A DNA stretch of 44,590 nt from the NCBI GenBank assembly GCA_016763755.1, contig JAESTD010000246.1, forward strand, positions 1-44,590. Reading direction: 5' to 3'. Positions 25,458 through 26,865 of the stretch are shown one piece after another. Each line of letters starts with the position of its first letter. Position 1 is the first letter of the stretch. Position numbers and translations under genes: made by a program. The notes under the pieces are model-generated. The model did not search any database, was not told where the DNA came from, and saw only the letters and a list, made by a program, of their open reading frames with translations. The stretch is from Mucilaginibacter sp. (lineage in GTDB: Bacteria > Bacteroidota > Bacteroidia > Sphingobacteriales > Sphingobacteriaceae).

Positions 25458-25465
25458 TATTTTTG
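25458..25465 (+). promoter_or_regulatory. -7 box for metK
   Basis: TATTTTTG matches TAnnTTTG exactly. Transcription should begin near 25469-25473, just before the first paired base of the riboswitch (25476). That makes the aptamer the extreme 5' end of the metK leader. A TTTG at 25441-25444 is closer than the usual -33 spacing. Confidence 0.55.
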
Positions 25466-25475
25466 CCACCTGAAA

Positions 25476-25543
25476 GTGGACTGATTTAATGCCCTTACCC
25501 TGTGTAAAGGCTGGATTGCAACCACGTAAAAAAGTGCTAACCC
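25476..25543 (+). promoter_or_regulatory. SAM-II-type riboswitch with enlarged loop, metK leader
   Basis: The conserved SAM-II pieces occur in order. P1 5' strand GTGG is at 25476-25479 and CTGATTTAA at 25481-25489. TTGCAA lies at 25516-25521, then the P1 3' strand CCAC (25522-25525), GTAAAAAAG (25526-25534) and TGCTAA (25535-25540). GGATTGCA (25513-25520) can pair with TGCTAACC (25535-25542), leaving the U-U and A-A mismatches; the U-U position corresponds to the SAM-binding site of SAM-II. The first loop is 26 bases, compared with about 5 in the well-studied alphaproteobacterial form. It holds its own hairpin (GCCCTTAC with GTAAAGGC). The site ends about 72 bases before metK, whose enzyme makes SAM, so feedback repression is expected. 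How binding is transmitted is not visible: there is no Shine-Dalgarno or clear terminator. A competing stem GTAAAA (25526-25531) with TTTTAC (25552-25557) would disrupt the pseudoknot. Confidence 0.82.
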
Positions 25544-25614
25544 TGCTCTCCTTTTACAGCGTTTCAACAATAAATCTCCTACCTTTCGGCTTTAACGTTT
25601 TTATACATTATTAT

Positions 25615-26865
25615 ATGTCATATTTATTTACATCGGAGTCTGTTTCAGAAGGACATCCGGATAAAGTTGCCGACCAGATATCTGACGCGTTAATTGATAA
25701 CTTCCTGGCTTTTGACCCCGAGTCGAAAGTAGCGTGCGAAACCTTGGTTACTACAGGCCAGGTGATACTTGCCGGCGAGGTAAAATCAAAAACCTATTTA
25801 GACGTTCAAAAAATTGCCCGCGATGTAATTAATCGCATAGGTTATACAAAAGGCGAGTATATGTTTGATGGCAACTCTTGTGGTGTGCTATCGGCCATTC
25901 ACGAGCAATCGCCTGATATTAACCAGGGTGTTGACCGCACAAGCAAAGAAGAGCAAGGTGCCGGCGACCAGGGTATGATGTTTGGTTACGCTACCAGCGA
26001 AACCGACAACTACATGCCGCTTGCATTGGATATTGCACACGCTTTATTACGCGAGCTTGCTGCTATCCGCCGCGAAAACACCGACATCAAATACCTTCGC
26101 CCAGATGCAAAATCACAGGTGACTTTGGAGTATAACAATGATAACCAGCCGCAACGCATTGATGCCATTGTTATATCAACCCAGCACGATGATTTTGCTG
26201 AAGAGAAAGAAATGTTAGAGAAGATCAAGAACGACATTATCAGCATTTTGATCCCTCGCGTAAAAGCTAAATACCCTAAATACGCGCACTTCTTTAACAA
26301 CGATATTAAATACCACATTAACCCTACCGGTAAATTTGTTATTGGCGGCCCGCATGGCGATACAGGCCTCACCGGTCGTAAAATCATCGTGGATACCTAT
26401 GGTGGTAAAGGCGCACACGGTGGTGGTGCTTTCTCTGGTAAAGACCCATCAAAAGTTGACCGCTCTGCTGCTTATGCAACCCGCCACATTGCTAAAAACC
26501 TGGTAGCTGCCGGTGTTTGCAGCGAGGTATTGGTACAGGTATCATACGCTATAGGCGTGGCTCAGCCGATGGGTATTTACGTAAATACTTACGGTACTGC
26601 TAAAGTTGGTTTAACCGATGGCGAGATCGCTAAAAAGGTTGAAGCAATCTTTAACATGACCCCATACGCTATCGAAACCCGTTTTAAACTGCGTAACCCT
26701 ATCTACAGCGAAACTGCTGCTTACGGTCACTTCGGTCGCCCTAACGAAACGGTTACCAAATCATTTAACGCGCACGATGGCAGCGTAGTAACCCGCGAGG
26801 TAGAGCTATTTACCTGGGAGAAACTTGACTACGTAGACCAGGTTAAAAGCGCCTTCGGTTTGTAA
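25615..26865 (+). CDS. metK: S-adenosylmethionine synthase
   Basis: MetK makes SAM from methionine and ATP. I start at 25615 ([20 protein letters not shown], 416 residues). The upstream in-frame ATG at 25489 is rejected because it lies within the riboswitch core and its extra 42 residues resemble no MetK. Family motifs are complete: the ATP/methionine site [16 protein letters not shown], the signature [12 protein letters not shown], and the P-loop-like [16 protein letters not shown]. It has its own promoter, a SAM-II-type leader and a strong terminator, so it forms a single-gene unit. A cluster of about 15 extra residues around [17 protein letters not shown] is ordinary for this family. Confidence 0.96.

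Follow-up and report, generated by a model that had tools for sequence, protein, structure and literature searches.

A SAM-II long-loop aptamer match upstream of metK in Mucilaginibacter and a leader strand predicted to compete with it

The action of riboswitches on their genes is mostly attributed to terminators or to the hiding of Shine-Dalgarno sequences. In the Bacteroidia, Shine-Dalgarno sequences are not recognized, and the metK leaders parsed in this study carry no classical terminators. A candidate S-adenosylmethionine (SAM) riboswitch located upstream of metK in a Mucilaginibacter species raises the question of how such an RNA might act on its gene. The stretch of DNA analyzed here (hereafter the window) comprises 44,590 nucleotides of contig JAESTD010000246.1. 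With moderate confidence, we propose that the leader of metK contains a SAM-II long-loop aptamer match, that the remainder of the leader is predicted to re-pair with this aptamer when SAM is absent, and that SAM would free the leader strand and thereby likely turn metK off.

An initial annotation of the locus had listed the motifs GTGG, CTGATTTAA, GGATTGCA, CCAC, GTAAAAAAG and TGCTAACC, in this order, as the conserved parts of a SAM-II-type aptamer. Every part is present at its assigned place, and the features of the promoter, aptamer and gene are as follows.

25458 to 25465, forward strand: TATTTTTG, Bacteroidota-type -7 promoter element (TAnnTTTG), assigned by sequence
25470 to 25550, forward strand: match to RF01726 (SAM-II long loop), the aptamer (cmscan, 40.7 bits)
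25476 to 25479, forward strand: P1 5' strand GUGG (GTGG in DNA), pairing with 25522 to 25525 (by sequence; P1 is formed in relatives)
25481 to 25489, forward strand: CTGATTTAA, assigned by sequence
25488 to 25512, forward strand: enlarged loop with its own hairpin (-6.2 kcal/mol, z -2.3)
25513 to 25520, forward strand: P2 pseudoknot 5' strand GGAUUGCA (GGATTGCA in DNA), by sequence and as conserved core in the RF01726 alignment
25522 to 25525, forward strand: P1 3' strand CCAC, by sequence and P1 pairing in relatives
25526 to 25534, forward strand: A-rich aptamer strand GUAAAAAAG (GTAAAAAAG in DNA), by sequence and the RF01726 alignment
25535 to 25542, forward strand: P2 pseudoknot 3' strand UGCUAACC (TGCTAACC in DNA) with the U-U position retained, by sequence
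25615 to 26865, forward strand: metK, methionine adenosyltransferase (TIGR01034, 519.6 bits, cut-off 309.4)

The Rfam comparison proposed along with the annotation, long-loop model included, aligns RF01726 end to end over 25470 to 25550, and the loop accommodates an insert of 26 nt. The score of 40.7 bits is below the gathering cut-off of 44 (E = 1.7e-6 for a 401-base stretch), and for this reason a gathering-threshold Rfam scan of the window reported nothing. When the whole genome was searched, the site had an E value of 5.0e-6 and the runner-up match scored 24.4 bits. Other Rfam families yielded chance-level matches only at the aptamer site. The annotated SAM-II-type aptamer with an enlarged loop upstream of metK in a member of the Bacteroidota is thus borne out, as is its spacing of about 72 bases, since the metK ATG at 25615 lies 72 nt past the pseudoknot 3' strand. 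These matches support the assignment of the metK leader as a carrier of the SAM-II long-loop aptamer, with SAM as its presumed ligand. SAM-I variants that sense spermidine exist, according to the accessible part of PMC10853860, and a matched class alone therefore suggests a ligand rather than fixing it.

This arrangement is widespread among relatives of the organism. Of the genomes sampled, 54 of 61 in the genus (34 above the cut-off) and 189 of 201 in the family (152 above the cut-off) contain RF01726 at E<=0.01. At E<=0.001, it occurs in 63 of 395 genomes of a phylum sample, and 62 of these belong to the same class as the window. We assembled a set of 171 sequences, consisting of the window and 170 sequences fetched around RF01726 matches. 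A pattern search found the core in 151 of them, always upstream of a metK start (151/151) and at a distance of 60 to 170 nt (median 78). Among 80 named metK loci located by protein, a similar pattern identified the aptamer in 37, and Rfam detects an aptamer in 6 of 20 checked loci that gave no pattern match.

All four P1 pairs are present in 149/149 parsed leaders, and the second pair is U-A in 134 and A-U in 15. The search pattern demands most P1 letters (the second pair is free on the 5' side and mismatches are tolerated on the 3' side) and fixes the pseudoknot letters UUGCA/UGCUAA, so the conservation of P1 and of the pseudoknot is partly by construction. P2 is nearly invariant; its variation is visible only with a looser pattern, which revealed one compensated case (L226, last pair A-U to U-A). 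The covariation anticipated by the initial annotation was therefore recovered for P1, whereas for P2 it is limited to L226 because the letters are required by the pattern. In four other sequences (L150, L151, L157 and L168), the P2 3' strand opens with GGCUAA or CGCUAA rather than UGCUAA while the 5' strand still reads UUGCA, and the terminal P2 pair is seemingly lost.

Classical SAM-II (RF00521) has a short loop. The loop of the window measures 28 nt when counted directly (26 nt as the insert in the Rfam alignment), and the z score of its hairpin was computed against mononucleotide shuffles. By the same measure, loops of at least 15 nt (92 leaders) have a mean z of -2.5, and 83% fall below -1. 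The fold predicted for the window pairs the 3' arm of the loop with 25550 to 25559, but loop-leader co-variation is absent within the genus (4,298 of 20,000 permutations reach the observed value), and we rejected the loop as a general part of the switch for this reason. It is most likely a passenger hairpin. The annotation was right that an enlarged loop with its own hairpin is present, but the loop is not new, because 'SAM-II long loops' were listed for Bacteroidetes and for marine sequences by Weinberg et al. in 2010 (RF01726; available text of PMC2864571). Likewise, the annotation had described SAM-II as best known from alphaproteobacteria, but Corbino et al. reported it in the Bacteroides group in 2005 (available text of PMC1273637).

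The window shares the core letters, P1, the pseudoknot letters, the A-rich strand and the long loop with RF01726. It also shares its aptamer architecture with the classical SAM-II or metA element (RF00521), for which the accessible portion of PMC1273637 mentions a possible transcription start site a few nucleotides before P1.

A comparable start is probable here from promoter letters. We take TAnnTTTG to be the consensus of the Bacteroidota-type -7 promoter element, and TATTTTTG at 25458 to 25465, whose last base is 11 nt upstream of P1, fits it. Of 149 related leaders, 136 have the form TAnnTT(T/A)G no more than 30 nt from P1, compared to 8.4 expected from shuffles. Because this count is far above the shuffled level, the RNA probably starts at the aptamer, in line with the annotation, which had the RNA begin within a few bases of the predicted transcription start. 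The divergent neighbor of metK in the window encodes a YegS/BmrU-type lipid kinase. In addition, a reading frame is open from an ATG at 25489 through the aptamer and leader (25489 to 25614) and is continuous with metK. This upstream frame was rejected as a gene and is probably due to chance, because the same frame stops after three codons in a close relative (L106).

The RF01726 model stops at 25550, soon past the pseudoknot, and includes no anti-aptamer strand. The approximately 60 to 75 nt between the aptamer and the AUG are partly antisense to the ligand-binding strands of the aptamer. The candidate anti-aptamer elements of the window are as follows.

25545 to 25557, forward strand: element 1 (GC...UUUUAC), complementary to GUAAAA at 25526 to 25531 and GC at 25536 to 25537 (RNAalifold; window fold with P1 forced)
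25550 to 25562, forward strand: alternative pairing of the same stretch with loop strand 25497 to 25510 (window minimum-energy fold, probabilities 0.80 to 0.96)
25571 to 25579, forward strand: element 2 (UAAAUC and UCC), complementary to GAUUUA at 25483 to 25488 and GGA at 25478 to 25480 (pair probabilities 0.95 to 1.00 and 0.67 to 0.74)
25583 to 25589, forward strand: element 3 (CUUUCGG), complementary to the RNA 5' end CUGAAAG at 25470 to 25476 (pair probabilities 0.77 to 1.00)

The best nested fold of the window leader (-27.0 kcal/mol, most pairs with a probability above 0.8) joins 25470-25476 with 25583-25589, 25478-25480 with 25577-25579, 25483-25488 with 25571-25576, and 25500-25510 with 25550-25559. 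When P1 is forced, the energy is -20.5 kcal/mol, a cost of 6.5, and GUAAAA at 25526 to 25531 then pairs with UUUUAC at 25552 to 25557. In the consensus fold of ten close relatives, P1 is kept and closed by CGAAAG/CUUUCG, and GUAAAA is again locked with UUUUAC (pairs retained in 9 to 10 of 10 by RNAalifold; GC/GC in 10 of 10). Therefore, two competitor folds are possible: one in which P1 is broken and one in which P1 is kept with the A-tract tied up. The gap of 6.5 kcal/mol is silent on which state would win because the folding model includes neither the pseudoknot nor a ligand.

When the fold of the window itself was scored in the ten relatives, GAUUUA/UAAAUC was paired in 94.4% of cells and the CUUUCGG/CUGAAAG helix in 95.7%, with double changes at one pair. 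The outer helix is 95% formed and nearly invariant, and its two cells with a double change were matched by 34 of 500 shuffles. Taken alone, the window gives a weak signal, with a fold z of -1.43 and duplex z values of -0.33 and +0.66 (the latter for the extended version). The whole window stretch has a z of -1.16, and 27 of 200 shuffles are equally good. Its leader residual is -1.4 with the loop; without the loop it is +0.9, which is no better than for the leaders of congeners. The proposal of an anti-aptamer strand in the window thus leans on its relatives.

Among these relatives, complements of the aptamer are frequent in the stretch past UGCUAA. When leaders are compared side by side, much of the genus carries CUUUUUUAC after UGCUAA, complementary to GUAAAAAAG, and AAUCC, complementary to GGAUU. 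Elsewhere, UUGCAAUC complements GAUUGCAA, and in some Flavobacteriaceae-type leaders CUUUAGCA complements UGCUAAAG. Complements to the P1/L1 strand lie close to the 3' end in some leaders. Exact complements of at least 8 nt to the first letters of the aptamer occur in 19 of 185 leaders and end about 12 to 40 nt upstream of the AUG. The longest are one of 13 nt in L085 (UCAAAUCCUUCCU versus AGGAAGGAUUUGA) and another of 12 nt in L241. After weighting by genus or record (68 units), exact complements are found at a rate of 21%, compared to 5% for the leaders of other units.

In most genera, this complementarity exceeds that of shuffled leaders. The duplex energy between the aptamer core and the first 60 leader bases has a mean z of -1.32 against dinucleotide-shuffled leaders (150 leaders), and the control, the initial 60 bases of metK, has a z of +0.07. 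By genus, 28 of 33 values are negative, and the five genera without an excess are g4, g6, g11, g14 and f11g69. A given leader also fits its own aptamer better than leaders taken from other genera (mean rank 0.285 against a null of 0.5). With an extended aptamer stretch and the leader taken from base 9, 26 of 33 genera are negative (all except g4, g6, g7, g10, g11, g24 and f3g27). For the minimum-energy fold of aptamer plus leader, again compared to dinucleotide-shuffled leaders, 31 of the 32 genera give negative values (mean z -1.75 over 149 leaders), and g22 is the sole exception. In these folds, the frequency with which the leader pairs with GAUUGCAAC and the A-tract is roughly double that in shuffles or higher. 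As a raw count that has no shuffled baseline, the leader pairs with at least 40% of either GAUUGCA or the A-tract/UGCUAA strand in 144 of 149 folds.

To assess co-variation, we computed the energy of joining each aptamer i with each leader j, centered these values on rows and columns, and compared the cognate mean with permutations. Four draws of 32 genera gave cognate values of -3.0 to -3.3 kcal/mol, each reached by 0 of 20,000 permutations; for 22 genera of the family, the values are -2.1 to -2.45 (0 of 20,000 each). A further 36 named leaders, including Bacteroidales, agree: 34 of 36 are negative with a mean z of -2.0, and their co-variation is -2.9 (0 of 20,000). Coding controls across genera were not significant in two draws (7,754 and 15,675 of 20,000 for metK 1-75; 10,938 and 11,645 for metK 75-150), nor were the 75 nt upstream (-0.34 and -0.45; 2,510 and 1,489 of 20,000). 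Reversed leaders gave -0.8 and -0.9 (260 and 192 of 20,000), which is a real but smaller effect and not a null. In two draws across genera, the whole core (0 and 0 of 20,000) and the first 20 letters (6 and 0) co-vary with the leader, and neither half of the aptamer core taken alone does so significantly.

Co-variation is also detectable within the genus (62 leaders), where the whole aptamer yields -0.73 (49 of 20,000) and the fold signal with the loop removed is -1.07 (0 of 20,000). Both the 5' part (151 of 20,000) and the core (0 of 20,000) co-vary with the leader there. The within-genus controls gave 3,247 (metK 1-75), 18,164 (metK 75-150) and 7,434 (reversed) of 20,000, and the upstream control lies in the opposite tail (+0.40, 19,922 of 20,000). 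Because the reversed control across genera and the upstream control within the genus depart from expectation and kinship is ignored, the permutations are imperfectly calibrated and serve as a rough yardstick within the genus. Based on these comparisons among relatives, we read the leader as a competing anti-aptamer fold that would serve as an expression platform where Shine-Dalgarno pairing is not used.

The aptamer class itself is already known; the novelty lies in a leader that co-varies with it as an anti-aptamer strand. No description of an expression platform or an anti-aptamer leader for RF01726 was found in the accessible parts of the literature searched, which lies outside the 2010 supplement and subscription journals. 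The RF01726 accession also occurs in PMC7682815, and the accessible portion of a Bacteroides thetaiotaomicron transcriptome study names three TPP riboswitches and no SAM riboswitch (PMC7366714). The anti-aptamer leader would supply a testable platform for a class that, since 2010, has mostly been known by its aptamer, and the co-varying competitor strand offers a concrete and mutable target for learning how metabolite-sensing RNAs act in this phylum.

In the proposed switch, the leader strand would pair back onto the ligand-binding strands of the aptamer when SAM is absent. When SAM is bound, the aptamer would close and release the leader strand, which would then be open to Rho or another reader of single-stranded RNA, and metK would be turned off. 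Because feedback by its product is the logic expected for metK, we infer that SAM acts as the OFF signal, and the two folds would presumably be mutually exclusive in the cell. If correct, the riboswitch could produce an output with no need for Shine-Dalgarno masking or an intrinsic terminator.

Rho-type termination is the output that we tentatively place first, ahead of RNase access and ribosome standby effects, even though we would not rate it as probable. This ranking was chosen because predicted access to the start region is unchanged, classical terminators are absent, Shine-Dalgarno sequences are unrecognized, the exposure of a G-poor strand is predicted to change, and a rho gene is encoded in the genome. 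Rho favors G-poor, pyrimidine-rich RNA. The predicted SAM-dependent change is whether approximately 45 nt of such RNA is single-stranded. The first 40 leader bases in the genus contain 30% C and 8% G. In a comparison set of 101 upstream stretches (75 nt each, from long open reading frames of the window and ten congeners), C and G each make up 18% of the first 40 bases. The leader of the window lies at the 97th percentile of this comparison set for C minus G. Across all genera, the mean percentile is 0.80, and 12 of 33 exceed 0.9. Composition was rejected as an argument for Rho in its own right, and the Rho step is a guess, because so few genera lie above the 90th percentile, because a strand antisense to a purine-rich aptamer will partly have this composition anyway, and because 17 named metK leaders that carry no aptamer are likewise G-poor.

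The ribB and mgtA riboswitches of Escherichia coli gate the access of RNase or Rho. The same has been described for the E. coli lysC riboswitch in the available part of PMC12121620. Ligand-dependent exposure of a leader is common to these systems and the window, but they involve other aptamers and other phyla, and a role for Rho or RNase is only proposed here. A broader proposal, which we regard as doubtful, is that SAM-II in its Bacteroidota carriers has a platform of its own, consisting of a co-evolving partial antisense copy, and that SAM decides whether this strand stays locked in a long hairpin or is freed as a G-poor single strand for Rho.

Among alternatives to this switch, translational control, in which SAM binding would alter access to the metK start region, is rather unlikely. 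A precedent exists in the S. meliloti metA SAM-II riboswitch, whose pseudoknot hides a Shine-Dalgarno sequence and which also acts across a long stretch to the start codon in use (74 nt compared to 72 nt in the window), according to the available text of PMC9373788. The position of the 19 exact complements relative to the AUG noted above would also suit such a mechanism. The metA system works via its Shine-Dalgarno sequence, whereas Bacteroidia ribosomes do not recognize such sequences, according to the accessible part of PMC9976891. Furthermore, the region from -15 to +18 is predicted, by a model that includes neither the pseudoknot nor a ligand, to be about equally unpaired in the free fold (0.559) and with the aptamer masked (0.552; t -0.8, 33 genera). 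We therefore rejected start-codon occlusion, and Shine-Dalgarno masking finds no support in this prediction. A freed strand would, if anything, aid ribosomes, which would give the wrong sign for feedback.

Intrinsic termination by one of the two folds is improbable. In the fold predicted for the SAM-free state, stems followed by at least 5 U in 8 positions occur in 66 of 149 leaders compared to 48 in shuffles, and putative intrinsic terminators have been noted in many representatives of RF00521 (accessible part of PMC1273637). Were the anti-aptamer stem of the SAM-free state the terminator, metK expression would rise with SAM, which is contrary to product feedback. Moreover, the excess of U-run stems may merely reflect the larger number of stems in real leaders. 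Classical terminators (a GC-rich hairpin followed by a U-run) were found in 0 of 149 leaders taken alone, where 1.5 were expected, and no terminator-like site was found in the window stretch.

An ordinary SAM-II RNA whose leader holds no dedicated competitor has a similarly low, perhaps slightly lower, probability. Here, the pseudoknot alone would block, for example, a pausing polymerase or an upstream ribosome standby site. Such an RNA would account for the conserved letters by the aptamer alone, and the complementarity of the window does lie inside the shuffled range. Against this stands the co-variation between leader and aptamer in the 32 genera and the 36 further records, which no permutation reached and for which the coding controls are null, as well as the corresponding signal within the genus. 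Finally, a chance resemblance in a leader that is not a riboswitch, to which the score under the curated cut-off might point, can be practically dismissed given the same position before metK in 151/151 parsed relatives, the 34 of 61 genus genomes above the cut-off, and a P1 pair found in both U-A and A-U versions.

The survey for the preferred reading, a leader that competes with its SAM-II aptamer, also yielded several unusual arrangements. Some Flavobacteriaceae-type SAM-II aptamers have a second hairpin inserted into the otherwise A-rich strand that separates the P1 3' strand from UGCUAA (L090, L092, L096, L224, L244 and L245). The first three were left out of the counts, and the last three are within the named set. 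In Flavobacterium hibisci, a Flavo-1 RNA (RF01705) is located downstream of metK (L205, positions 1981 to 2059). In a Bacteroidia genome from a metagenome (L243), a SAM-I (S-box) match on the reverse strand (219 to 327) and a SAM-II match on the forward strand (449 to 531) lie upstream of metK in a back-to-back arrangement.
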